This document shows positions 15,736 to 37,335 of a stretch of 47,867 bases of DNA, one piece after another. Location of the stretch: contig DAIDHX010000221.1 of NCBI GenBank assembly GCA_027451885.1, positions 1 to 47,867 of the forward strand, in the 5' to 3' direction. Source of the stretch: Planctomycetales bacterium (lineage in GTDB: Bacteria; Planctomycetota; Planctomycetia; Isosphaerales; Isosphaeraceae). How positions within the stretch are numbered: position 1 is the stretch's first letter; each line of letters starts with the position of its first letter. Made by a program: the position numbers and the translations under genes. Under the pieces are notes generated by a model. That model was not told the DNA's origin. It worked only from the letters and a program-made list of their open reading frames with translations, and searched no databases.

Positions 15736-16245
15736 ATGGGCTCAAACGGCGTTTCCGTGGAAATGATTCGCCTTGCGGTAAACGGTGATCCGGCCGCGGT
15801 TGAAGCGCTTTTGTCAGTGGCCCAACCGGATATTCGCCGCTACGCGAAGCGCTACTGCATCAGCCATGAGGATGCGGAAGACGCGGCCCAGCAGACGCTC
15901 TGGCAACTCTATCGCAGGATTGGCGCTCTCAGAACGGCAGCGTCGTTTCCCGCGTGGCTGATGATGATCGTGCGCAGGGAGTGCTCACGGCTCGCAAGCC
16001 ACTTAAAGCATCAGTCCCTGATCGAGGAAAGTGTGCTCGCGGAGCGGTCGGATTCGGAGCTTCGCCTCGACATCGCCGCGGCGATCGAGTCGTTGCCCGA
16101 AAGGTTTCGTTTAGTGGTGATCCTGCGCGACTTGCAAAGCAAGACCGTCGATGAGATCGGTCAAGAACTCTCCCTCGGCCGCGAGGCGGTCAAGAGCCGG
16201 TTGCATCGGGCTCGGATCCTGATGCGAGAATATCTGGCTGATTGA
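15736..16245 (+). CDS. ECF-type RNA polymerase sigma factor
   Basis: 169 residues, compact sigma-70 family protein. Region 2 spans about residues 20-90 (YAKRYCISHEDAEDAAQQTLWQLY, with the RNA polymerase-binding DAEDAAQ segment, then FPAWLMMIVRREC). Region 4 spans about 112-165, with LPERFRLVVILRDLQSKTVDEIG and the DNA-recognition helix GREAVKSRLHRARILMREYL. No anti-sigma factor with the usual zinc motif is next to it; instead a Cys/His-rich lipoprotein gene (41 nt on) and a thioredoxin-like gene follow. Regulation may therefore involve one of those partners or lie elsewhere. GAAGGAAG precedes the ATG. Confidence 0.9.
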   Translation: MGSNGVSVEMIRLAVNGDPAAVEALLSVAQPDIRRYAKRYCISHEDAEDAAQQTLWQLYRRIGALRTAASFPAWLMMIVRRECSRLASHLKHQSLIEESVLAERSDSELRLDIAAAIESLPERFRLVVILRDLQSKTVDEIGQELSLGREAVKSRLHRARILMREYLAD

Positions 16246-21576: not shown

Positions 21577-23874
21577 TCACGGCAAGGTCGAATAGATCAC
21601 CACATTGGCCGCGATTCGGGTCGCGCTCGTGTGGGTATACCCCTTGCAGTCGATGCCGGAATGACGCTCGAGTGCGCATCCGATATCGAGCTTTGAATAA
21701 ATAATCGCCCAGTGATCGTTGATCTTGATGCCCTCAAGCTGGGGAAAATCCTGGCCTCCGCCGGCCGCGGGAGTGTACTGGCAGTCGGAAAGATCGAAGG
21801 CGATCTTGGTGGAATAGAGCGGATCGTTGCGTGGAATTGGCGTGAGCGGCTTGCCGGGCAGAAGCTCCTTGACGAACTTTCGGAAGGCAGTATCGAAGGC
21901 GAAGCTGCCGCAAGCTGCGTCTGCGAAGAGGGTGCCGCCGCCTGGCTCCAGGTGGCGCCTGAGCGCTTCGATGTCTTCCTGATCAAAGGCCATGGCCGAC
22001 CGCCCATGGAGGTAAACGAGGGGGTAATAGATCAGTCCCTGATCCCTGGCGGCGAGGTCTTTCTGGTTGATCACGACGTCGAAGTTGAGCGGGGGCCGGC
22101 GGAGGGTTTCCATCAGATTTGCAACCGCGCGGGGGGCGATGTTCCAGTCGCCTGCGTACTTGAGCTTGGCGACTCGCAATGCACCTCGCCGGGGTGCATC
22201 AAGCTGGGGCGAGACCGTGGCGCGGACGGCGAGTTTGTCGGCCGGACGTTCTCGCCCTGTTGCGTAATCGACGATGTTTCGACCCACGTGCATGCCGCGA
22301 ATGACCGCGGGATTTCTGGGATCGCGTTCGGCCTGGTTCCAGTAGCAAGAAAGGTCCTGCGCGGAGTAGATCACGATCGTGCGGCAGCCGTGCTCGACCC
22401 CGTAGAGCGGGTTCCAGTTGGGATCGAGGTTGTAACGCGCCCGGTAGACCGGGTGTTCAGGAGGCAGGAGCTTGAGCTGGTATTCCTCTTCGGGCAGGAT
22501 TTCCTTGATCAGCCTGCGGAATCCTGCGTCGAATCGCGAATCGCCGCAGCAGGCGTCCGCCATGAGAAAGCCCCCCTGTTCCAGATAGCCGCGCAGAGTC
22601 TTGCGCGCGGCGGGGGAAAGCTCGGGCGCTTCGTGGCCGTTCATGAAGGCGATGGGGGCCTGGAGCATGTCCTCGACCGAGGCGTACGCCGGATTCACGA
22701 TTTGCCAGGTGAGAAGCGTTTTCCAGTCGCGGCTGGTCTCGTTTGTGAGCTCACGGACGTCGTCGGGGTCGTTGTTCCAGTCGGTGATTGGCTCGCGGAA
22801 GAGCTTGTTGATGATGACCGGCGAGCGTCCCTTGGCCAGGAACAGGAGTGCGAAGCTGGTGGCGACAAGCTCATTTTCGCTTCCGCCGCCGCGCCAGAAT
22901 CCGGAGAGCCGGTTCTGCGATTGCACAAGCTCCTCAGCGCCCAGCCTGTACCAGTCGTTGCGGCCGAAGTACCGCACGCCCGCGAGCCGGCCTGCGCGCT
23001 CGAGTGCGTACAGGTAATAGTAGCGCCATTGCTGGCCGTTGCCGAAGTTCTGCTGGACCGAGAAATGATTGGCCAGCCAGGCCACTCCGCGCGCGAGGTT
23101 GATGTTGAATCCCCCTTTGCCGCAGTCGCGGATCGCCTCTCCCTGGAGGAATTCTTGCCCCATGTACCTTCGAACGCCCGTGATCACCAGGCTTGAGACC
23201 CCAGCGCAGGTCATGCTGCCGGTGGGATTCGAGCGCCCGATCGTGTAGCCCCAGCCGCCGTCTCGCGTCTGGAACCGCTCGAAATAGGCACGCGAAAGCG
23301 CCCAGACGTCGGGATTGACCGGCACGCCGGCCTCATGGGCCGCACTTAAGCCCAGAAGCGCGTACTGGGTGTTGGAATTATCCCCTGCCTGGTTCTTCTG
23401 GTCAGAGTAAGTCCACGCTCCTGGCCAGGGCACGCGGTCGTTGGGTGTGATCTGTGCCTGTTCAAGCCAGTTCACATTGGCCACGATCCGCACCCGGTCG
23501 CGCTCGGGATCGGCCAGAGCGTAAACCATCGTCTGGAGCGCGATCGCATAGGTCGACCGCAGCTCATCCGGTGTATGTTTACGCAGGTAGTCAAGCGCAC
23601 GCGCAACCTCCGGAGCATCCGCTTTCTCACCGGCGGTCAGCAGCGCGAGCGTCACGAGCGCTGTGGTCCCGACGCCCGTGCGCATCTCGACTTCAGCCCA
23701 GGAGCCGTCGCCCTTGTTCTGGCGCCCCTTCAGAAATCGGATGCCGTCGCGGATCGCGAGCTCGACCTGCTCGCTTGTGACGCCGCCCTGCGTCTCCGGT
23801 ACGAGGAATAAAACGAGCGGCACGGCAAGCGCCGTCACAATTCCCAACGTGATGGCTCGCGTGAATCGAACCAT
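21577..23874 (-). CDS. Squalene-cyclase-like protein with two DUF4159 domains
   Basis: 765 residues. An N-terminal signal anchor (about 5-25, TLGIVTALAVPLVLFLVPET) is followed by an alpha/alpha toroid resembling prenyltransferase/squalene oxidase repeats, with repeats such as GTTALVTLALLTAG and FQTRDGGWGY up to about residue 380. Two DUF4159 domains follow, the first near 400-550 (GGFLMADACCGDSRFD) and the second near 620-765 (GGTLFADAACGSFAFD). DUF4159 resembles a glutamine-amidotransferase-like fold and is common in Planctomycetes; no catalytic activity is known. The protein is predicted to be extracytoplasmic. The start at 23874 has GAGG upstream. It lies 135 nt after the phosphodiesterase-like gene on the same strand. 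Confidence 0.85.
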   Translation of the reverse strand: MVRFTRAITLGIVTALAVPLVLFLVPETQGGVTSEQVELAIRDGIRFLKGRQNKGDGSWAEVEMRTGVGTTALVTLALLTAGEKADAPEVARALDYLRKHTPDELRSTYAIALQTMVYALADPERDRVRIVANVNWLEQAQITPNDRVPWPGAWTYSDQKNQAGDNSNTQYALLGLSAAHEAGVPVNPDVWALSRAYFERFQTRDGGWGYTIGRSNPTGSMTCAGVSSLVITGVRRYMGQEFLQGEAIRDCGKGGFNINLARGVAWLANHFSVQQNFGNGQQWRYYYLYALERAGRLAGVRYFGRNDWYRLGAEELVQSQNRLSGFWRGGGSENELVATSFALLFLAKGRSPVIINKLFREPITDWNNDPDDVRELTNETSRDWKTLLTWQIVNPAYASVEDMLQAPIAFMNGHEAPELSPAARKTLRGYLEQGGFLMADACCGDSRFDAGFRRLIKEILPEEEYQLKLLPPEHPVYRARYNLDPNWNPLYGVEHGCRTIVIYSAQDLSCYWNQAERDPRNPAVIRGMHVGRNIVDYATGRERPADKLAVRATVSPQLDAPRRGALRVAKLKYAGDWNIAPRAVANLMETLRRPPLNFDVVINQKDLAARDQGLIYYPLVYLHGRSAMAFDQEDIEALRRHLEPGGGTLFADAACGSFAFDTAFRKFVKELLPGKPLTPIPRNDPLYSTKIAFDLSDCQYTPAAGGGQDFPQLEGIKINDHWAIIYSKLDIGCALERHSGIDCKGYTHTSATRIAANVVIYSTLP

Positions 23875-24009
23875 GAGCCACGCCTCGGCACCGCCAGAAT
23901 ACCCCAACCGATCGTTGATTGTGGCCTCGACCACGATGGTTCGACAAGGCGCAAGCTTTGCAGAGACGACTTCCGAACGCCGGCGCACACATTCTTGGAC
24001 GACCTGCGA

Positions 24010-25472: not shown

Positions 25473-28112
25473 TCAGCTCGAAGCCAGCGCGTGCGGCGAG
25501 GGCCGCGATCGCGTGTCCTTCTCCGCTGTTTGCAGTCGCTCAAGCGCGCGCTGGCCAAGCGACCGCCTCCAGGCCGCGGCGATCGGCAGCGCCATCACAC
25601 CGGCGATGATCATGCTCATCGCGCCCTGATAGCCCGCCTCAACAAAGCCGTATGAATGCAGGCCCACGCCCAGAATGAAGTTCACACCGTACCAGGCCAT
25701 GATCACCGATAAGAAGCACACAACCGAAGACACCACAAGCGCGAACGAACTGATCCAGCCGGCGAATCGCCCGTGGAGCGGGATGAGGTAAACCAGGAGC
25801 GTGATGAGCGCCCAGACTTCCTTGGGATCCCAACCCCAGAATCGTCCCCACGATTCGTCGGCCCAGACGCCTCCTAGAATCGTGCCGGCCGCAACCAGGA
25901 GCACTCCCACCTGCATCGTGCGGTAGACGAAGTTCGAAAGTAGCTTCACGGATGCAGCCGAATTCTGCATGGCGCGGGCGCGGAGGTTCTCGCTACCGGC
26001 GGCGGATGAGACCCCCTCGGTTCGATATGCCTCGGGGTAAAGCATCCGGTTTGTGAGCTCACCGGCCACTGCCAGGAACCCAGCCAGTGACAACGAGCCG
26101 CCCAGAAGCCCCAGCACGGCACAGACGTAGAAGAGCGTATCGCTGCTCATGCTCCCCGACTGGGTCACCGCCCAGCCCGGCCCTAGCAAGCCGTAGAACG
26201 CGGCCACGCCGCCAGCGCCCACAAGCAGCATGGGCGCGCCAATGCCGAGCGGCGCAGCGAGTTCGATCGGCCGTGGCGAACGCCTGTACGTGGTCACAAG
26301 GTAGCGCCCGCAAGCAATCAGCCCCAACATCCATGCCACGGCGAAGGCCGCATAGCTCGAGACCTCGGTCAGAACATGGATCGTCAGCCAGTAATTACTG
26401 CGCAGCACAGGCTGCAAGCTCTTGATGCTGGGGTCGAGCAGCGGCACGTTTGCCGCCGTGATGGTGCCCAGCAAGGCCACGCCGGAGCCCGCAATCGCGA
26501 GCATCACCTTGGGATAGATGAGTTCCATGATGAACGCCAGAACCGCCGCGACGAGCGCCACCCAGATCACGGTCTCGTACATGTTGGTCACAGGCGCCCA
26601 GCCACTGATCCGCACACGAAGGTAAAAGCCGTAGACCTCGATCACAATTCCAGCCAGAAGCGCCGTGAGGCCAGTGCGATAGACGGTGCGGGTGAGGAAA
26701 CCTGCAACAGTCGACGCCTGCATCAGGCTCGCAAACCCGAGTGCGAATAAAAGCAGAACCAGGGCCAGTCCATACGCCAAAGGCGCCTGGTAGAACGGGT
26801 TCGTGGCGTTGAAGCTGGTCTCGCGATTAATGATCGATGTCGCTGGATAGCTGGTGGGATTAATCGCCTCTCCAAAGGCGCGCGCGGCGGCCAGAAAGCT
26901 CTTGCCCACCATTTCGGGCGAGTGGCCGGGGGCGCCGGCTTCAGACGATTCAAGCGTGCGGTAAGCCTCCAGGAACGCCCGAAGCTGCGACTCCGGATAG
27001 CCAGCGGCGATCAGATCCTCCGGCTTCGATTTGAGAAAAACCTGCACCGGGGTCCACACGACGTTATCCCGCAGCCAGTTCTTGTAGCGTTGATCAGCAT
27101 CCTTGCTCTCGGCCGGATCGTGCCGGTCGTCGATGGGGATGTCATTCCAGTAGGTCGAGATGGCCTTGAGCTCGTCGAGCACGAGCAGCGACGCCTGAGC
27201 CATGTCGCGGGTCTCGCGGGCGTGTTTGATCGACTTGGCGGTATCGGCCAGATATGCGTCGCTCGTGAGCCGGGGCATGATCAGGACGAGTCCATTCGAC
27301 TGAAGCCGGTCGCTCGAGTAGGCCTTGTAAGTCATGAGGCGATTACCCACCTCGACGGCCCTGCGCTCGACCTCGGAAAGTCTGGGTGCGGAAGTCGGAT
27401 TCGCGTTGTATCTACGCTGCTGGTCCTGAAGATCAGACGCCCAGTCAAGAAAGGGCCTGGGCTGATCGTGCACGATCACGCGGGCCTCGTTGAGCTCGCG
27501 CGGGCTCATCCAGTGGTCGGACTCTGACAATTTGAGCGCCAGCTCAGCGACGGTTTTCTTGTCTTCAAGCGGCAAGCTTGATCGGCCGAGAAAGCCTGCA
27601 AGTGCGGTATGCGACGGCTCCACGGCCGCGGCGAGCGACTCCAGCGATTCGCGGTCGGCCTGCGAGGTCGTGGGCTTGGCTGCCACAGCCTTGAGCCGCG
27701 TCATGAGTGTTTCAGCCAGGATCATGCGTCTGAGGGGCAGGTAATCGACCAGGATGAACGACTGATCGTCCCAGAACTCCGGGCACATGAACCAGCCCAG
27801 GAAGACGCTCACATGGCCCCATTTAACAGGAGTGTCGCGATCGCCGGGCTTGACCCTGGGATCGACCATGAGTTCAATGCCGCGGGTCTTGTCGGCGAGC
27901 TTGATGGTCTCGCGGCCGTAGACCTGTTTGACTTCCTCGCGTGCGACAGTGTCAAGCGGCTTGACGCGGCCCTCGTGCATCACGGGGACCTTGCCGATCG
28001 CCTCGTATCCAGCGCCTGTCCCGGGAGCGTCGGCCGCCCGGGCATGGCTGGCCCCCCCAGGGCTCGCCGCGACCGCAACCGCAACCGCGCACGAAAGAAT
28101 CCACTGCCTCAT
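25473..28112 (-). CDS. ccsA: Cytochrome c synthetase subunit CcsA/ResC, with large N-terminal extension
   Basis: 879 residues, against about 320-400 for ordinary CcsA. Residues 1-27 are a signal peptide; about 30-410 form a soluble, mostly helical exported domain (MHEGRVKPLDTVAREEV); from about 435 a multi-helix membrane part leads into the CcsA domain. The haem-handling WWD motif is WGRFWGWDPKEVW near 755-767, flanked by conserved His in the helices (HVLTEVSSYAAFAVAW and later PLHGRF). CcsA with ResB moves haem across the membrane and ligates it to CxxCH motifs (System II). It starts 33 nt after the resB stop with GGAG upstream, a clear pair. Long N-terminal extensions of this kind occur in Planctomycetes and related phyla. 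Confidence 0.93.
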   Translation of the reverse strand: MRQWILSCAVAVAVAASPGGASHARAADAPGTGAGYEAIGKVPVMHEGRVKPLDTVAREEVKQVYGRETIKLADKTRGIELMVDPRVKPGDRDTPVKWGHVSVFLGWFMCPEFWDDQSFILVDYLPLRRMILAETLMTRLKAVAAKPTTSQADRESLESLAAAVEPSHTALAGFLGRSSLPLEDKKTVAELALKLSESDHWMSPRELNEARVIVHDQPRPFLDWASDLQDQQRRYNANPTSAPRLSEVERRAVEVGNRLMTYKAYSSDRLQSNGLVLIMPRLTSDAYLADTAKSIKHARETRDMAQASLLVLDELKAISTYWNDIPIDDRHDPAESKDADQRYKNWLRDNVVWTPVQVFLKSKPEDLIAAGYPESQLRAFLEAYRTLESSEAGAPGHSPEMVGKSFLAAARAFGEAINPTSYPATSIINRETSFNATNPFYQAPLAYGLALVLLLFALGFASLMQASTVAGFLTRTVYRTGLTALLAGIVIEVYGFYLRVRISGWAPVTNMYETVIWVALVAAVLAFIMELIYPKVMLAIAGSGVALLGTITAANVPLLDPSIKSLQPVLRSNYWLTIHVLTEVSSYAAFAVAWMLGLIACGRYLVTTYRRSPRPIELAAPLGIGAPMLLVGAGGVAAFYGLLGPGWAVTQSGSMSSDTLFYVCAVLGLLGGSLSLAGFLAVAGELTNRMLYPEAYRTEGVSSAAGSENLRARAMQNSAASVKLLSNFVYRTMQVGVLLVAAGTILGGVWADESWGRFWGWDPKEVWALITLLVYLIPLHGRFAGWISSFALVVSSVVCFLSVIMAWYGVNFILGVGLHSYGFVEAGYQGAMSMIIAGVMALPIAAAWRRSLGQRALERLQTAEKDTRSRPSPHALASS

Positions 28113-28145
28113 CGCACCATCTCCACTGGATCGTCGGCGTCGCGA

Positions 28146-30317
28146 CTAGAGTTCAAGATTCGCACCTTCCGTGGCAGCCTTTCCAGCCGGCACGGACAGC
28201 CCCTTGCCCTTCAGATTCTTGTCACGCTCGCGCTTGCCGCCATCGGTGAAGATGCCGGCGCGCATGTAAAACTGCAGGAACGTTCCCAGCACCACCAGGA
28301 TGCAACCGCTGTAAATGATGTACCTGCCAGGATTCGTGGCCACCTGAAAAACTGACTGAAACTGGCCAGTGAATTGCCGGGTTCGGGGGTCGCGCACCCG
28401 GATGTAATTGGTCTGATAGAACGTGTAACCCCGGTAATCGAGCGGGTGGTTCATCCAGATCTTGTATCGGTTGTCGTTGATACCGGCGGACTTGTCCGTG
28501 AGCAGGACTGTACTTTCAAAGTGTGTGGGTTGCTCGGTACCGGGTTCGTAGCCGGTGTCGAAGTCCTCGAGCTTGAGCGTGAATCCGAGCGGCTTGCGAT
28601 CGACGTCATAGAGGACCTCGAAGAATGTGTCACCGAAGGTCAGGTGCTGCGGAGGGGGTGGGTCGAGCGATTCCGAGCGGCTCAGCCAAATTTCCTTGGA
28701 TTGTCCGTTGTACGTCATGACGGCGCGGCAGGCAGCGATGCCGTTGCCCATCTGATTCTTGGGCAGGACCACTGGCTCGTAGATCTGCTTCTCGATTCCG
28801 GAGGGCAGGTAGTCGTCCACTCGGAACGAGATGGTCATGGGCATGTTGGGCCCGCCGCCGAAGGCCGGGATCGGCTTCCCCTTGGTGGCTGGTCCGGAGG
28901 ATCGCAGGGTTCCCGTGGATTCCTTGCCACGGCCGTAGACGCGCTCATAGAGCTGACCGTCAGGGCCGGCCAGAATCTCGATCTGGCCGAAACGGCCGTT
29001 GGTCTTGGGATCGATCGTGGGGGCCGTCATGTAATGGATGGAACAGAGCGGATGCGCCGGTTTGCTGGTAGTCTCTTCCTGCGCCGGGATCACGTTTGGA
29101 ACCATGGGCAGATTGGCGAGCGCCATGTGGGTCACCGGCGGCCCTGCGTCCTGGCGGATGGCGAAGATGGCGATGGGAATCGGATCCTCACCAAGGACGT
29201 GGTCGAGACCGGCCGAGACGGTCGGTAAGTCGCTGACTTCCCGGAACTCCACCGTGAGCTTGCTCTCGGGAAGTGGGAAAGTCTTGCCGGAGGCCAGGCC
29301 CTCGATCGCGACGTCGTGGGTGCGCGGTTTGCCCGCCGCATCCTGGTACCGAAAGCGTGCAATCCCCTTGGTTCCGAGCTCAGGTGGCTTGAGAAAGTCG
29401 TCGACGAGCTCCTGACGATCAACTTGTGCGAACACGATCACGGCCGGGCGCTGATTGCGCACCACGCGGCGGAACTTCTTCTCGAGCACGAACCAGTGCT
29501 CGTCCTCCGAGGTGAAGGCATCGCTCCCCTGGGGCATGCCAGGCGCCTTGAAGTCGAGCGTGAGCCGAGCCATCGGCGCACCATCTGGATCGGTGACGTG
29601 GACCGTTGCGGGAACCGATGCCGGCAGGTGCTCCTTGACCACGAAGGTGAACGGGTCGCCCTTCTGTGTCAGAACATCCTCGGTGGTGGGCGGCGCCAGG
29701 TGTCCCAGCGACACAAGCCGGAGCATTCGGCCGAAGAAACCCGCGTCACGCGGCTTGCCCGGCCCCCACTCAAACGGTCCGGGGTGGAAGGGGATCTCGA
29801 ACTCGGCCTTCACAGCGTTTGCATGAGGATCGATCTCGCGGACCCGGATGACCGGATGATCGATCCGCACCAGCTCGCCACGTTGTTCGCCTTCGAGCAT
29901 CCCCACCTGCCCCTCGTCGGAGGTACGCACTGCAACGTACGATCCGGCGAGGAGAATCAAAAGCCCGGCATGCGTGACCACAAATCCGGTCTGGCGCTTC
30001 TTCCAGGGGTAGCGGATCAGAGCCGCGCACAGGATGTTCATGCCCAGAAACGCGAGCAGAATCGCGAAGCCCGGGCTGCGGTAGATGTACTCCTGCGACG
30101 CGGACGTGCCGTACCAAGACTCGAAAAAAGTGGCATACGCCAGCGTGGCGGCAAGCGAGCTGAGCGTGATCACCGCGAGCTTGAGCGAGGCCAAAAAGCG
30201 GTAGAGGGCGTCGACGGCCCGCGCTGCTCGCTCGAGGACCGACAGAGTCGGCTCGGGTTTTCCAGCATCGCCTCGTGGCGATGAGGCAGAGGGCACGGGC
30301 TTCGACGCAGTCACCAT
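28146..30317 (-). CDS. resB: Cytochrome c biogenesis protein ResB/Ccs1
   Basis: 723 residues, ResB family. Four hydrophobic helices are expected: about 42-62 (LKLAVITLSSLAATLAYATF), 82-102 (FAILLAFLGMNILCAAL), 113-132 (GFVVTHAGLLILLAGSYVAV), and one near 675-695 (YIIYSGCILVVLGTFLQFYM). The large region between is the periplasmic domain, with YTFYQTNYI near its end, the usual ResB segment. VTHAGLLILLAGS carries the conserved His. With CcsA it forms the System II synthetase that attaches haem to apocytochromes outside the membrane. GGTGAG precedes the ATG. A candidate promoter lies at 30406-30434. The sigma factor gene upstream on the same strand has a CxxCH motif of its own. Confidence 0.94.
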   Translation of the reverse strand: MVTASKPVPSASSPRGDAGKPEPTLSVLERAARAVDALYRFLASLKLAVITLSSLAATLAYATFFESWYGTSASQEYIYRSPGFAILLAFLGMNILCAALIRYPWKKRQTGFVVTHAGLLILLAGSYVAVRTSDEGQVGMLEGEQRGELVRIDHPVIRVREIDPHANAVKAEFEIPFHPGPFEWGPGKPRDAGFFGRMLRLVSLGHLAPPTTEDVLTQKGDPFTFVVKEHLPASVPATVHVTDPDGAPMARLTLDFKAPGMPQGSDAFTSEDEHWFVLEKKFRRVVRNQRPAVIVFAQVDRQELVDDFLKPPELGTKGIARFRYQDAAGKPRTHDVAIEGLASGKTFPLPESKLTVEFREVSDLPTVSAGLDHVLGEDPIPIAIFAIRQDAGPPVTHMALANLPMVPNVIPAQEETTSKPAHPLCSIHYMTAPTIDPKTNGRFGQIEILAGPDGQLYERVYGRGKESTGTLRSSGPATKGKPIPAFGGGPNMPMTISFRVDDYLPSGIEKQIYEPVVLPKNQMGNGIAACRAVMTYNGQSKEIWLSRSESLDPPPPQHLTFGDTFFEVLYDVDRKPLGFTLKLEDFDTGYEPGTEQPTHFESTVLLTDKSAGINDNRYKIWMNHPLDYRGYTFYQTNYIRVRDPRTRQFTGQFQSVFQVATNPGRYIIYSGCILVVLGTFLQFYMRAGIFTDGGKRERDKNLKGKGLSVPAGKAATEGANLEL

Positions 30318-30405
30318 GAATTCTCACCTACCCAGGGTGGGATGTCGCGGAGGGTCGCGGAGCCCTCATCAGAAGGGCCCAAACCAGGAACGTCAACCGA
30401 CTTTC

Positions 30406-30434
30406 ATTCTATTCGCATCGTACCACAGTGGCCA
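30406..30434 (-). promoter_or_regulatory. Candidate promoter for resB-ccsA
   Basis: Read on the minus strand: TGGCCA (4 of 6 to TTGACA), a 17-nt spacer, then TAGAAT (5 of 6 to TATAAT). Initiation would fall near 30399, giving an 82-nt leader to the resB start at 30317. It would let resB-ccsA be expressed separately from the sigma gene upstream. Confidence 0.45.
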
Positions 30435-30560
30435 GTGTTCTCGTGGCTTCGGCTTTGCTTCGCGGCTCTGGTCTTCTGTCGCAAAGCATTACATCTGTGA
30501 AAGTTAAACGATGAACGGGGGCAGATTACAAGTGTCGTATGCCGCGGGGCTGGATCGACC

Positions 30561-31547
30561 CTAGTCGCGGGCGGCGAGGTGGCAGCGGAGGCAAGCGAGC
30601 TCGAGCCTTTGGGCTGCGGTCACGGTCGTTTTAGCGGTTGGGTCGGGCTGGGTGAGGAGTGCGGCGATCGCGCGGTATTCATCACCCTGGCTGGTGTCTG
30701 GTTGGCCGTCATCGCTGCGATTGAGCCGATCGAGCGCAGGCGCGGCGTTGATCAGCTCACGGGCGGCCTTCTCGAATTCGCGCGACTCGGGAAGACGAGC
30801 TTGGGCGAGCAGCCTGCGCAGGCTGGCGGCTGGTTGTGCGTGCCCCGGTAGTGGCGAGCGAGTGGACAGCTTGGGTGCGGGGTGAGTGCTTTCGAGCTGG
30901 GAGCGCAAGCTGGTCGCCGCCATCGGGGCAACAACGGCGAGGGCGAGTGCAAGCGCGATCCCGCGAAGGGCGAGTTCGCGCCGCAGAAGGCTGCGAGCCC
31001 GATCGAGGCGCCGCGACATCGAGCCCACAGGCCAGCCCAGGGCGCGGGCTGCATCCTGGTGTGTCTCACCCTCCAGGTCGCAGAGGACCACAAGGGTACG
31101 ATATTTTTCGGGAAGACGTTCCATCGCGTTCTGGACCGCGGCGCGAAGCTCTGCCAGGTCGAGATCGGCGGGAGGGAGCGTGACCGGGTGCAGCGTTTCG
31201 GGAACGGCCGAGGCTTGATCCTGACCGTCATGCACAAGAGATGACACGCACAGTTCACGCGTGCGGGTGCGTGCAGCGTCGCTACGCGCGGCGAGAGCGA
31301 GCCTGCGTGCCACGGCGACGAGCCAGCCTGCGATTGACTCGCGCCAGGTGACCCGATCCGCCTTGCAGGCAAGGACGAGGAACACGGTCTGGAGTACGTC
31401 TTCAACATCGCGCGGATCGCGGAGCAGGCGGCTGCAAACCCGCCGCACGCGCGGTTCGTGCCGTCGAACCAATGTCACGAAGGCGTCTTCCTCGCGGGTC
31501 GCGGCGAATCGTCGCACGAGCGCAGCGTCGGAGGGTGTGGTCGTCAT
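30561..31547 (-). CDS. ECF sigma factor with transmembrane helix and C-terminal CxxCH domain
   Basis: 328 residues, about twice a minimal ECF factor. Region 2 covers about 10-85 (HEPRVRRVCSRLLRDPRDVEDVLQ, split here by description; WLVAVARRLAL). Region 4 covers about 130-192 (LPEKYRTLVVLCDLEGETHQ and the recognition helix GSMSRRLDRARSLLRREL). A hydrophobic helix follows at about 196-213. The remaining 115 residues would lie outside the membrane; they are helical, Pro/Ser-rich at first, and end in LACLRCHLAARD, with CLRCH at 319-323 and Arg four residues after the His, as in class II cytochromes (c'). Haem attachment is inference. Planctomycete sigma factors with C-terminal extensions are known, but I do not recall this haem-motif type as characterised. 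It lies 243 nt upstream of resB. Confidence 0.9.
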   Translation of the reverse strand: MTTTPSDAALVRRFAATREEDAFVTLVRRHEPRVRRVCSRLLRDPRDVEDVLQTVFLVLACKADRVTWRESIAGWLVAVARRLALAARSDAARTRTRELCVSSLVHDGQDQASAVPETLHPVTLPPADLDLAELRAAVQNAMERLPEKYRTLVVLCDLEGETHQDAARALGWPVGSMSRRLDRARSLLRRELALRGIALALALAVVAPMAATSLRSQLESTHPAPKLSTRSPLPGHAQPAASLRRLLAQARLPESREFEKAARELINAAPALDRLNRSDDGQPDTSQGDEYRAIAALLTQPDPTAKTTVTAAQRLELACLRCHLAARD

Positions 31548-31655
31548 CGTGTCCGTCCCCAGCAGGCTTCTCGTCTCCTCTATCTCTTGATGCCCCCGGT
31601 TGGAGCTTTGAATGCATCTTTTTGAGAAATACCTCAGGCCGTCCGGGTTCCAGGG

Positions 31656-32724: not shown

Positions 32725-35700
32725 CTAGAAGGGCTTCTTCATATCGGTCCACAGGTTCGACCAGAAGCTGCTGCTCTTGGAGCTCGAACTGCTCTTGGTC
32801 GAGGACTTGTGAGTCGTGACAGACGCGGGCGGCGTCTTCGAGGAACTGCTCGAGCTTGACGCGGTCGAGGAGCTCGTGCTGCTCGAAGCCGTGGAGCTTG
32901 CCGAACTCGATGCGGTCGGCGAGCTCAGGATTGCGCCAGCGGGAGTGAGCGAGGTTGGGAGGGCAGGATTCGCCGAGGACACGATTCCGTCGAGCGCTGG
33001 ATTTCGCGTCGCGGTGGGCATGAACGTGCCGACGGTCGAAGTGCCGGTGACCACCGCTCCGAAGCTGCTCGAGCCGGGGCTTGAGGAACTGCTCGAGGGC
33101 GTCGCGGCCGCTGTGCTCGGTGAGCTCGATGCGGCCGGGGTTGTCGTGGCGGCCGGGGTTGTCGTGGTTGCCGGCGCGGGGGTCGTGGTGGCCTGCGTTG
33201 AGCTTGAGCCTGGCGAGCTGGTCGTTGACGAAGCTGTCGTCGGCGAGCTGCCAGTGCCTGGGCTTGTCGAACTGGCTGTGGGGACGGCCGAGAGATAATC
33301 GATCGTGATCTGCTGGCCGTCGATCATCGCCGTGCGAGCGCCCGAGACCACGGTTTCGGTGGGCATTGACGTGGCCGTGGTGTTCCCGCTCGGCGAGAAC
33401 AGGGTGTAGAACGGCAGATACGTACCCGGCATCTCGCCACGATTGACCTTGAAGCGATCAGGAGAGATGCCGCGATACTTCGCAACCGCGGACTTCGGCA
33501 CCCAGAGGAACCTGGGCTGGATATGCTGGATCGCGACGAAGTTCCGCGGGGTGGTCGGGGCGAGCAGGAAGCCGTTGGCCGAGGCCCGTTGCCGGTCGGT
33601 GACGGCGTAGGCATCGGGCGAAGGCAGGAGCGTGCGGGCGAGCATCCGGAACTGGTTGAGCGTGATGCCGCCGGTCAACTCGCCCGAGGCGGCGTAGTTG
33701 AAGAAATTGAACCTGCGCTGTTCGGCCCCTGGCTGGTCCGGATTCTCGTTGAAGCCCAGATTGTTGAGCCCCGGCTGGACTGCCGAATAGGTCGCTGTGC
33801 CGCCCAGGAGGGCCGCCATGGCGCCTGCTTCAGGCATGCCCATTGAGGCTGAGTTGTTGACGAAGTTCTGGAGATCCTGGGCCGTCACCACGCCGTCGTG
33901 ATCGGCGTCGATGTACTGGAAGTCGTGGTGAGCGAGCAGGTAATTGATCGCAACGTAGCCTTCGACCGCGGCCACGGCATTGGCCACGTTGACGCTGGCG
34001 TACGAGCGGTATTGCGTGCTGCCTGGCAATTGCGGCGGCGTTGAGAGGCTGCCGCCGTTATTCGCGTCGATGGCCGGCATGGCTGTCCAGGCGAGGATGC
34101 CGTTGATCCCCGACGGGGTGTTCCAGGCCGACAGATTCCTGAACGCGTGCTTACCGAAGTTGAGCGAATCGACTCCGACCGGCGTGGTCAGATAGGCGTC
34201 GGCCGTGTAGCCATTCGACTGGGCCAGGGTGGTCCAGTAGTTGAGTGCCGAGGACACAAGGGCATAGGCACCAGTCACGATGGCCGAGGACATCGAGGTC
34301 CCAACCTGTGTGAAGGTGTTGTGGTTGGCGGGATCGCCCGTTGTGGTCGACGTTGTGGACGTCGTGCCTGTCGTGGTCGTTGTGAACGTGCGGCGGAAGG
34401 TTGGCACGTCGAACGCCGGCGCGGCGAAGTCGGTTGTGTTGCTACGATTGACGCCTGCGGCGATCTTGTTGGCGTACTGCGTGAAGTCGGCCGCGGCGAG
34501 CAGGTTGGCATTGGCATTGAAGCCGCTGGTGCTCGTGGTGGTCCCGCCGCCGCCCGCGGTCCCGCCGCCGCCGCCCGCGCCGTTGGTGCTCGTCGCGGTG
34601 CCGCCCAGGGTAAGCTGGCTCCCGAAGAGCAGAACAGGCCCTGGAGGCTGCGGGATCACACCCGTGGGCGCCCCGATCGGCGTTGAGGCCGGCGTGTTGA
34701 TGTACGGGAACGGATAGACGCCGGTCACCGAGATCACCTCGTTGAGCACCGCCGGCAGAGACATGCCGTTCACGTCGCCGAGCGAGGGGTTCGAAGCACT
34801 GTTGTTGCCGTTGGTGGTCGAGGCCGTCGTACCCGTGCCGCCATTCCCCGCGGTCGTAGTGGTCGAGCTCGATGCGCCAAGCGGTGCGCCAAATTCGCCA
34901 GAGGCCGCGATCGGGGCGATGCCCTCCCTCAGGAACTTGTGGTACTCGTTCTTGAGAGCGATGACGATTTGCGGGTAATTCTTGTAGGCATTGACCTCGG
35001 TCTGGAAGGTCTGCGGCGTACCGAAGGCGAACTCTGCCGCGATGATCCGATCCACCTTGCCGGGACGAACGGGATCGACCACGTACGGGTGCTGCACGAC
35101 ATATTGCAGCCCGTTGTAGAGCATGTTGGACGTGGTGAGCGCGTTGGCGGTTTGAGTGAAGCCGGTCGTACCGGCACCCGTACCTCCCGTGCCACCCGTG
35201 CCACCCGTACCGCCTGTGCCCCCCGTGCCGCCCGTGCCTGTGCCCCCTGTCAGCGTGATGTTGCCAACAAAGGGGACGAAAATGTCGACCGGCACGATGG
35301 TGGCCTGCGGCACGAACTGAGCGATGACGCCTGCGACGGGGGTGCCGTGGCCGTCCACGGTATTGGAGAGCAACGAGGCCGCGCCCTGGCCGGTGCCAGT
35401 GCCTGTACCGCCTCCCGTACCGGTTCCAGTCGTCGTGCTCGTCGAGCTCGAGGCTGTGTCCACATTGCCCAGCCCGCCGGTGAAGATGTCGGTGCCGGGC
35501 GCAACTCGGCCTCGGAACGGAGGTGAGCTGGTCACGCCTGTGTCAACCACCGCAACTGCCGCGCCCAGGCCGTCGTAGGGAACGCCCAGGGTACGCAGAT
35601 CGTTGAGGCCGACCAGCGAGCCCGAGGTCGAACCCGCGAGGCTGGCGGTCGTCTTGAACTGCCAGATCCCCTGGTCGTCCGACGCGAACAGAGTGGTGCC

Positions 35701-37335
35701 GTCGGCCGAGAAGCTGATGGAGAGCATCGAGTTGATAAAGCTCGACGAATCCTGGGCACCGTTGGTGGCAAAGCCATAGGCGAACGTGTTGGCCGTGCCG
35801 TTCGGCAGCACGCGGATAACGCGGCCGCCGAAGGTGTTGCTGCCGCCAGTCGTATTGCCGTCGGTGATGATCGGGATGACCGCGCCGGCGGAGTCGGTCG
35901 TGACGCCGATCGTGCCCGAACCTTGCACCGGCACCTGAATCGGCGTGGTTGGGAAGGGCGCGACTGGCGTCACGGTCACAAAAAGGCCGGAAGCCAGGTC
36001 GCTGACGAACAGGCTGCCGCCGTAATTTGGCGGATTCGTCACTGTATAGGTTGTGCTTGACTGGCCGGTGGTCGTGGTTGTCGAGGTCGTCGTCGTGAGC
36101 TGAAGGCTCTGTGAGAAGTATCCATACTGGTCGAACGCGATGCTTTCAAACCGGCGGAAGGGGGTGGTCACCGCGCCCCGTTGATCAAGCGGAGTCGTGG
36201 TGGCGAGTGTGACTCCCTGGCCGAGCAGAAGCTCGCCGGCCGAGCTGCCCTGGATGCCGCTATAGCCTGGCTTTGCGGGGATGCCACCCGCCGCCGGTGT
36301 GCCGAAATCAGTGAAAATCGAGTAGACCGGGGAGGTGTAATCTGAGTTGGATGCGGTGAGTCCGACAATTGGGCCCGTGTTCACCGTGGTTGACGTTACC
36401 ACACCATTGACGATTGTGTTGGTCTGGACGGGGAGGCCCAGGTTCGTCTCAGTTACGCCGGTCGGCAAGGTCGCGTTGCTGATGACCTGGCCGGGCGAAT
36501 AAGAAGACGACTGGAAGTACAGGGCCGCGAAGGTTCCCGAGGTCGAGCTGATGCCGCTGCCGGCAATGAGTCCGCTCAGGAACGCCTGATCCTGCACGGG
36601 GGGCACCAGGATCGCGGTGGGGTTGATGTTAAACTTCAGCGAGGAAAGCCCGTCGGTGAACTGGGCAAACACCCCCATAAGCGTGCCGTTGGGAGCGATC
36701 TCGAAGATCAAATTCTTGGCGGGATCAGAGCGATCCACGCTACTCACGAACATGGCAGGAGTGCCGCTGAAGATGCCCTCTGAGTCGAACGTGATGCTGT
36801 ACCAGTTCACCAGCCCAGTCGAGGCGCCGAGGGAGTTCGCCGCGGGTGTGCCCGGCGTCGCGTTATTGGGATCGATCTGGTTGATAACCGTGTTAAGGTC
36901 GAAGAAAACGCTCGTCTTGCCCGTGGCTGGATCAACGCGGTAGATCACACCCGGCCGGTTGATCGCACCCGTGGCGGCGTTGTCGCCCGCGCCTCGCGAG
37001 ATCGCATAGACGTCGTTGCCGAAGACGCCGCCAGGTCCGGCAGCGATCGTGACGATATCGCCGCCGAACGACGATATCGGCGTAAGCTCCGACACCGACG
37101 TAATCGGCGCGGCCGTGCCAATGTTTGTGGCCGTTGTGTTCTGTGAAACGACCACCGAGCCCAGGTCGGCGTTCGTTGGGGTTGCGGCCGCCGTGAAAAC
37201 CGCCTGCAGTGGATAGGTTGCCACAACAGGAGCAGGCATGCACCGCGCCTCGAGCGGGACTGGCGCCGACATTTTGAGTTCGCGACGATTCCGCCGCGTT
37301 TTCCCGCTTGACCGCGGTCGGGATGGCTGAGACAT
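32725..37335 (-). CDS. Large secreted subtilisin-like (S8) serine protease
   Basis: 1536 residues. The Arg-rich start leads to LEARCMPAPVV, a variant of the planctomycete surface-protein N-terminus. Residues 50-580 are repeat-like beta structure (propeller-like, YRVDPATGKT). The protease domain has the triad Asp598 in VAVVDTGV, His663 in DGHGTPVAGV and Ser1014 in VGTSMSSAIVTG. Where subtilisins have AAGNxG with the oxyanion Asn, this protein reads AASGEFG. Insertions split the domain: Gly/Thr repeats at 697-721, Ser/Thr/Gly loops at 820-850 and 910-940, and a Thr run near 984-999. An EF-hand loop (DADHDGVVTAQD, 1143-1154) may bind calcium. The last 185 residues are Ser/Thr/Pro-rich and resemble a cell-wall linker or glycosylated stalk. 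GGGAGA precedes the ATG; a terminator follows. Confidence 0.9.
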   Translation of the reverse strand: MSQPSRPRSSGKTRRNRRELKMSAPVPLEARCMPAPVVATYPLQAVFTAAATPTNADLGSVVVSQNTTATNIGTAAPITSVSELTPISSFGGDIVTIAAGPGGVFGNDVYAISRGAGDNAATGAINRPGVIYRVDPATGKTSVFFDLNTVINQIDPNNATPGTPAANSLGASTGLVNWYSITFDSEGIFSGTPAMFVSSVDRSDPAKNLIFEIAPNGTLMGVFAQFTDGLSSLKFNINPTAILVPPVQDQAFLSGLIAGSGISSTSGTFAALYFQSSSYSPGQVISNATLPTGVTETNLGLPVQTNTIVNGVVTSTTVNTGPIVGLTASNSDYTSPVYSIFTDFGTPAAGGIPAKPGYSGIQGSSAGELLLGQGVTLATTTPLDQRGAVTTPFRRFESIAFDQYGYFSQSLQLTTTTSTTTTTGQSSTTYTVTNPPNYGGSLFVSDLASGLFVTVTPVAPFPTTPIQVPVQGSGTIGVTTDSAGAVIPIITDGNTTGGSNTFGGRVIRVLPNGTANTFAYGFATNGAQDSSSFINSMLSISFSADGTTLFASDDQGIWQFKTTASLAGSTSGSLVGLNDLRTLGVPYDGLGAAVAVVDTGVTSSPPFRGRVAPGTDIFTGGLGNVDTASSSTSTTTGTGTGGGTGTGTGQGAASLLSNTVDGHGTPVAGVIAQFVPQATIVPVDIFVPFVGNITLTGGTGTGGTGGTGGTGGTGGTGGTGAGTTGFTQTANALTTSNMLYNGLQYVVQHPYVVDPVRPGKVDRIIAAEFAFGTPQTFQTEVNAYKNYPQIVIALKNEYHKFLREGIAPIAASGEFGAPLGASSSTTTTAGNGGTGTTASTTNGNNSASNPSLGDVNGMSLPAVLNEVISVTGVYPFPYINTPASTPIGAPTGVIPQPPGPVLLFGSQLTLGGTATSTNGAGGGGGTAGGGGTTTSTSGFNANANLLAAADFTQYANKIAAGVNRSNTTDFAAPAFDVPTFRRTFTTTTTGTTSTTSTTTGDPANHNTFTQVGTSMSSAIVTGAYALVSSALNYWTTLAQSNGYTADAYLTTPVGVDSLNFGKHAFRNLSAWNTPSGINGILAWTAMPAIDANNGGSLSTPPQLPGSTQYRSYASVNVANAVAAVEGYVAINYLLAHHDFQYIDADHDGVVTAQDLQNFVNNSASMGMPEAGAMAALLGGTATYSAVQPGLNNLGFNENPDQPGAEQRRFNFFNYAASGELTGGITLNQFRMLARTLLPSPDAYAVTDRQRASANGFLLAPTTPRNFVAIQHIQPRFLWVPKSAVAKYRGISPDRFKVNRGEMPGTYLPFYTLFSPSGNTTATSMPTETVVSGARTAMIDGQQITIDYLSAVPTASSTSPGTGSSPTTASSTTSSPGSSSTQATTTPAPATTTTPAATTTPAASSSPSTAAATPSSSSSSPGSSSFGAVVTGTSTVGTFMPTATRNPALDGIVSSANPALPTSLTPAGAILSSPTASSSASSTASSSTSSSTASSSSSSSKTPPASVTTHKSSTKSSSSSKSSSFWSNLWTDMKKPF
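35173..35247 (-). repeat. Nonameric Gly-Thr coding repeat
   Basis: Within the protease gene, about eight imperfect copies of a 9-bp unit encode Gly-Gly-Thr (residues 697-721). The unit differs mainly at third codon positions. It is a low-complexity linker between the His and Ser parts of the catalytic domain and is likely to be length-variable between strains. Confidence 0.85.

Follow-up and report, generated by a model that had tools for sequence, protein, structure and literature searches.

Most sigma factors of the extracytoplasmic function (ECF) class sense the outside through a separate anti-sigma factor, and the locus described here raises the question of whether a single ECF polypeptide can carry its own sensor across the membrane in the form of a c-type cytochrome. 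The window, by which we mean the whole stretch of DNA analysed, comprises the 47,867 nucleotides of contig DAIDHX010000221.1 (assembly GCA_027451885.1) from a Planctomycetales bacterium of the family Isosphaeraceae. On its minus strand, beside the cytochrome c synthetase genes resB and ccsA, an open reading frame with an ATG start at position 31547 encodes a protein of 328 residues, in which a preliminary description had seen a membrane-tethered ECF sigma factor with a haem-binding tail. We find that this architecture is real, and we put at roughly 0.6 the probability that the protein works as a one-protein transmembrane switch, in which a tethered ECF57-like sigma factor is gated by an outer class II c-type cytochrome domain that is loaded with haem by ResB and CcsA.

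The N-terminal part of the protein has sigma regions 2 and 4, both matched in Pfam above the cut-off (Table 1), with no Pfam match to region 3, and is thus of the ECF type; regions 2 and 4 are likewise present in all 17 homologues described below. Region 4 is followed by one hydrophobic helix, whose strongest 19-residue stretch (residues 192–210) has a mean Kyte-Doolittle value of 2.1. The 15 residues that precede the helix include 6 Lys or Arg and the 15 that follow it include 1, and from this bias we predict that the sigma part lies inside and the tail of about 115 residues lies outside. The tail ends in CLRCHLAARD, where Arg327 stands four residues after the His of the CLRCH motif, and it contains no Cys besides the two of CxxCH. 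Pfam, hydropathy and our reading of the open frame therefore agree with the preliminary description on the sigma regions, the helix, the position of CLRCH and the Arg that follows it.

To find relatives of this protein, we searched 45 genomes of Isosphaeraceae and obtained 17 full-length homologues, the window protein included, from six genera of these soil planctomycetes; members include those of Singulisphaera sp. GP187 and Aquisphaera insulae JC669. An 18th homologue, in genome G032, is interrupted by masked bases and shows CVRCHVAMR. The CxxCH motif stands near the C-terminus in all 17 (18 of 18 when G032 is counted), and all 17 have the hydrophobic helix after region 4, with basic residues commoner on the sigma side. 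The preliminary description had staked its reading on homologues keeping both features, and every full-length one does. After G196, the only invariant residues are C319, C322 and H323; in the sigma part, C38 and C156 are invariant in all 17. The mean share of the majority residue is 69% in the sigma part vs 43% in the outer part, so that CxxCH stands out within a fast-changing outer domain.

The family is also well separated from other sigma factors. Its own profile scores the members at 410–493 bits and about 110 sampled other planctomycete ECF factors with C-terminal extensions at 237 or below. Just two of these have CxxCH in the tail, one of them being a genuine di-haem domain, and this rarity together with the invariance in 17 of 17 rules out that the motif arose by chance. 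A search of 392 genomes from across the phylum, which scored five candidates per genome and so does not prove absence, gave no full-length homologue outside Isosphaeraceae. Confinement to one family means that the six genera provide few independent evolutionary samples. One other planctomycete ECF factor (L167:4893-6914) has a hydrophobic helix and a CMRCH tail, along with parts that by eye are SnoaL-like and membrane-fusion-protein-like. Within the window, a weak match to sigma region 4 lies at 16051-16239 on the plus strand, in another open frame of 178 residues.

The identity of the outer domain comes from the relatives of the window protein, which itself matches Pfam in its sigma domains only. 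At a permissive threshold (E up to 10), 11 of the 17 members match PF01322, the cytochrome c' family, and the window member is not one of them; a single member (L013) exceeds the curated cut-off, with 27.1 bits against 26.5. The PF01322 matches that we examined reach the last or last-but-one position of the profile, at its C-terminal end. When a profile of ten outer domains is compared with the PDB, it finds cytochrome c' and cytochrome b562 chains at E values of about 0.001–0.005. AlphaFold models the Singulisphaera sp. GP187 domain (L107) as the membrane helix and then a helical bundle, with a mean predicted local distance difference test (pLDDT) score of 76.5 and with 83–96 per ten-residue block over residues 51–140. 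The leading Foldseek matches of this model are cytochrome cb562 variants, the Kuenenia Kusta0087/0088 complex and cytochrome c'. These Foldseek matches are weak (E-values of 0.01–0.1) and concern a fold, the helical bundle, that is easily matched, so we give more weight to the sequence evidence. Rows from VIA-align for the relative's outer domain (Z about 10–12) contain many unrelated helical bundles and fall below the score that the tool requires for such folds, and they were not used as proof. For the full window protein, the AlphaFold model is poor (pLDDT 54.7) and unfit for claims about fold. From these comparisons, we conclude that the outer domain is probably related to cytochrome c' (class II) at the family level, a relationship that rests on the window protein's relatives and for which the window member is the weakest case. 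The class II assignment in the preliminary description thus holds for the homologues, through PF01322 and the PDB profile, and lacks a Pfam match in the window's own domain; the structure prediction that it proposed gave a cytochrome c'/cb562-like bundle for the relative and too poor a model for the window protein.

The ten better-preserved members also share, as invariant residues, a Met in the first helix (helix A), a Trp and a Phe after CxxCH, and the Met could be a sixth haem ligand. The Arg four residues after the His occurs in 11 of the 17, the window protein among them. Seven of the 17, again including the window protein, have no Met in helix A, and the window clade together with four members of another genus has lost this Met and has shorter helices while CxxCH is kept. 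We therefore read the window's outer domain, on sequence grounds, as a reduced class II cytochrome in which the motif is kept and the remainder is eroding. Ligand binding by the window protein itself is uncertain, because its domain is reduced, has no helix-A Met and has no Pfam match. Stand-alone proteins with the same class II domain and apparent export leaders are widespread in the family (L191, L194, L195, L198 and L205-L207), L194 having two copies of the domain in one protein; the window's own genome has a stand-alone class II cytochrome with an apparent export leader as well (L197, C177).

Table 1. Coordinates of the sigma gene, its parts, the synthetase genes and the regulatory elements in the window.
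Feature	Coordinates	Strand	Evidence
Membrane-anchored ECF sigma factor, outer domain cytochrome c'-like, 328 residues	30561..31547	-	Pfam, homologue comparison
Sigma region 2, residues 26-93	31269..31472	-	PF04542 (Sigma70_r2), 43.4 bits, above cut-off
Sigma region 4, residues 136-187	30987..31142	-	PF08281 (Sigma70_r4_2), 52.0 bits, above cut-off
Single hydrophobic (membrane) helix, about residues 196-213	30909..30962	-	Hydropathy and positive-inside rule, 17/17 homologues
Outer domain, residues 214-328, probable reduced class II cytochrome	30564..30908	-	Family-level PF01322 matches, PDB profile matches, relative's model
CLRCH haem-attachment motif, residues 319-323, followed by Arg327	30579..30593	-	Invariant CxxCH, 17/17
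resB (CcsB), cytochrome c synthetase subunit	28146..30317	-	PF05140, 70 bits
ccsA (ResC), haem-handling cytochrome c synthetase subunit	25473..28112	-	PF01578, 101 bits
WWD haem-handling motif of CcsA, WGRFWGWD	25827..25850	-	Sequence reading
Conserved bipartite promoter-like element AAAAGATGCATTC...GGGCATCAAGA before the sigma gene	31585..31622	-	Upstream of the start in 17/17; almost unique in the genome
Sigma70-like promoter of resB, TGGCCA-N17-TAGAAT, in the sigma-resB gap	30406..30434	-	Similar sequence in 14/15 homologous gaps

ResB/CcsA joins haem to CxxCH motifs outside the membrane. The Pfam matches to the two neighbours bear out that the sigma gene is directly upstream of resB and ccsA on one strand; CcsA also scores 151.6 bits against TIGR03144, the CcsB-type model, which is under the equivalog cut-off of 187.6. 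A role in CcsBA has been described for the WWD motif that it contains (PMC6299221). The co-conservation of this neighbourhood, which the preliminary description had asked for, is seen in 15 of the 17 loci, where resB directly follows the sigma gene and has the same orientation; in the other two loci, both from Singulisphaera genomes, the two genes lie apart. In genus g13 and in G029 the neighbour on the opposite side differs or is displaced and the sigma–resB pair is intact, and in G003 the sigma gene is missing and a sugar-phosphate-isomerase-like gene abuts resB. Since resB is present in 43 of the 45 genomes, about 25 of the genomes with resB having no such sigma factor that we could find, the sigma factor is an accessory to the synthetase and not a requirement for it. 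A search of the window's genome for the system I marker CcmE found nothing, which makes system II (ResB/CcsA) the likely route of haem attachment; the tail thus has what is expected of a system II substrate, namely a CxxCH predicted to be outside in a genome with resB and ccsA and no CcmE found.

Other genes around these loci are listed here for completeness. At loci without this sigma gene (L073, L074, L077, L080 and L082), another conserved gene, DUF3754/TMEM143-like by eye, often stands before resB. In genus g13 (L043, L044 and L045), a planctomycete-type cytochrome gene (CVGCHG; PSCyt1/DUF1592-like by eye) is divergent from the sigma gene and is a candidate target. On the minus strand of the window, positions 32725-37335 encode a protein of 1536 residues, conserved in L040 and L047, which by eye resembles subtilisin and has a long tail rich in Ser and Thr, and positions 21577-23988 encode one of 803 residues with prenyltransferase-type repeats and then two similar halves (by eye), which is syntenic in L041 and L043.

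The preliminary description had suggested that the sigma factor may control resB and ccsA, and the upstream sequences do not support direct control. A bipartite promoter-like element with a consensus of about AAAAATGCATTCG-N14/15-GGCATAAT precedes the sigma gene in all 17 homologues, its first base being 74–98 nucleotides before the start, and it is kept even in Singulisphaera, where the surroundings differ. In a position-weight scan the true sites score 22–38 (lowest 22.3), and nothing else comes close in about 290 kb of surrounding sequence. The same scan finds no such element in the sigma–resB gaps, where resB has its own sigma70-like promoter (consensus CTGGYC...TAGAAT in 14 of the 15 gaps read). 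Matches of 16.5 bits upstream of resB in two Singulisphaera genomes are below all true sites (at least 22.3) and were taken as chance. Over the 45 genomes, a strict pattern of the element picked out the sigma gene in 13 genomes; its few other matches are scattered single sites inside open reading frames and gave us no wider regulon, although the pattern can miss degenerate targets. Because the element precedes the sigma gene and not resB, which has a separate promoter, the arrangement suggests that autoregulation by the sigma factor is likelier than direct control of resB-ccsA, with read-through from the sigma promoter as a possible link to these genes. We infer the pairing of the sigma factor with the element, which could also serve another regulator.

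The window protein is not the only ECF factor in its genome that is fused to a cytochrome domain. A second one, encoded on the minus strand at L183:2553-4919 (G000:C211), combines regions 2 and 4 with a hydrophobic stretch and carries at its C-terminus a di-haem oxidoreductase (DHOR) domain (PF06537, 88.8 bits vs a cut-off of 22) with CLGCH and CAHCH motifs. Full ECF-DHOR proteins are present in five of the five other family genomes examined (G037, G038, G027, G009 and G014; L250-L254). In Isosphaeraceae, ECF factors have thus become fused to cytochrome domains of two unrelated types, and two separate fusions make a stronger case for function.

How might such a protein work? A model is provided by IutY (ECF243) from Pseudomonas putida, which joins a sigma factor to an anti-sigma domain anchored in the membrane. 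Its sigma factor can be freed by Prc and RseP, and removal of the periplasmic parts activates it (PMC5411451, PMC8999054). Both are single polypeptides with a cytosolic ECF sigma factor, one membrane span and a periplasmic domain, and in all 17 members of our family hydropathy and charge predict the same layout, with one helix after region 4 and the sigma part inside. The outer part of IutY, however, is no cytochrome: it is an anti-sigma domain that belongs to cell-surface signalling and responds to a siderophore receptor. By analogy with IutY, the ECF57-like sigma factor would be held at the membrane by its single helix while the outer class II domain would receive covalent haem from ResB/CcsA. 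The state of the outer domain, be it haem loading, redox state or a bound ligand, would then set whether the sigma factor is tethered and inactive or freed, with the cytochrome domain controlling protease access and with intramembrane proteolysis as the most likely means of release. The freed sigma factor would read its own promoter and raise its own level, and read-through would perhaps raise resB-ccsA.

Parts of this scheme resemble other known systems. The sigma part looks close to ECF57 by phylum and by its two invariant Cys: ECF57 factors are planctomycete proteins with a C-terminal extension, and their two reported conserved Cys between sigma2 and sigma4 may correspond to C38 and C156 here. 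The ECF57 extensions differ in being described with WD40-like repeats for protein contacts, and no class II cytochrome is described there. The way of working is likened to that of the membrane-tethered ECF52/53 factors, and SCO4117 (ECF52) of Streptomyces coelicolor is such a tethered factor with an outer sensing part, but that part is proline-rich and carbohydrate-binding and the protein belongs to another sigma group (PMC8999054). CorE and CorE2 of Myxococcus xanthus likewise do without an anti-sigma factor and sense a cofactor through a C-terminal domain of their own, but this domain is cytoplasmic, Cys-rich and metal-sensing, without membrane helix or haem (PMC8999054). Geobacter GSU0582 and GSU0935 (PMC3460858) and the haem Cache domains (PMC12889525) combine an extracytoplasmic sensor bearing covalent c-type haem with a cytosolic output, but their folds are PAS-like or Cache and their outputs are chemotaxis or other signalling, not sigma factors. 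The class II cytochromes (cytochrome c', cytochrome c-556 and Kusta0087/0088) share the C-terminal CxxCHxxFR and the helical-bundle fold with family members and differ in being free-standing, with no sigma tether. Among the papers searched, which left out most subscription papers, we found none that describes a sigma factor joined to a c-type cytochrome domain.

Several of the results above weigh against the cytochrome-gated switch: the weak Foldseek E-values, the window domain's lack of a Pfam match and of a usable model, the Met lost in seven members, the two Singulisphaera genomes with the sigma gene apart from resB, and the sigma element missing from the sigma–resB gaps. A more specific form of the switch, in which haem loading (or haem state) set by the neighbouring synthetase controls release and the protein acts by itself as a homeostat of haem or of cytochrome maturation, is one that we hold tentatively, at a little short of an even chance. 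Loss of the Met and shrinkage of the domain with CxxCH kept lean slightly toward haem loading as the signal, while a five-coordinate haem could equally bind gas, and sequence alone has no power to choose between such signals.

The switch can be narrowed in two ways, each of which we hold less likely than not. In the first, the tail is a test substrate of ResB/CcsA, such that under a shortage of haem or of synthetase activity it would be left apo and unfolded and be cut, and the sigma factor freed to raise cytochrome maturation; haem loading itself would be the signal, with electron transfer and ligand binding irrelevant. That CxxCH is the sole invariant feature of a shrunken domain whose helix-A Met is so often lost, and that the gene is so steadily adjacent to resB-ccsA, would both be expected from this, but resB is under its own promoter without the sigma element, the Singulisphaera sigma genes are apart from resB, and the roughly 25 genomes with resB manage with no such sigma factor found. 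We give the same modest weight to the second narrowing, a sensor of redox state or gas, in which the haem domain would always be loaded and a redox change or the binding of nitric oxide (NO) or carbon monoxide (CO) would trigger release. Cytochrome c' binds NO and CO, and the outer domain is probably its relative. The invariant helix-A Met of the ten better-preserved members fits as well, as does a reported covalent-haem Cache sensor domain with the properties of an NO sensor (PMC12889525), yet in the window clade and in most of one other genus CxxCH persists although this Met is gone and the helices are shorter.

We consider it improbable that the motif is a thiol-disulfide or zinc site and the tail a redox-thiol or metal switch. 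Cys motifs are used in this way in other sigma and anti-sigma proteins, for example in metal sensing by CorE (PMC8999054), and the window tail offers no further Cys, but the His is as invariant as both Cys, the motif falls at the end of the cytochrome c' profile in most members, and the adjoining genes attach haem. Least probable of all is that the sigma gene stands beside resB-ccsA merely through inherited gene order, its tail being a functionless, decaying remnant. In favour of this, flanking genes are likewise kept in many loci, the outer domain is poorly conserved and one g2 genome has no such gene at the locus; but the invariance of C, C, H and the upstream element over six genera, even where gene order has changed, argues for selection.

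If the tethered sigma factor is indeed gated by its own outer cytochrome, a domain with covalent haem would add a new kind of sensory input to the ECF class. It would open a direct way to study how bacteria monitor cytochrome maturation or the redox state of the periplasm, and would provide a possible reporter of system II activity. Taken together with the ECF-DHOR fusions, it would make cytochrome-gated sigma factors a class of their own in Isosphaeraceae.

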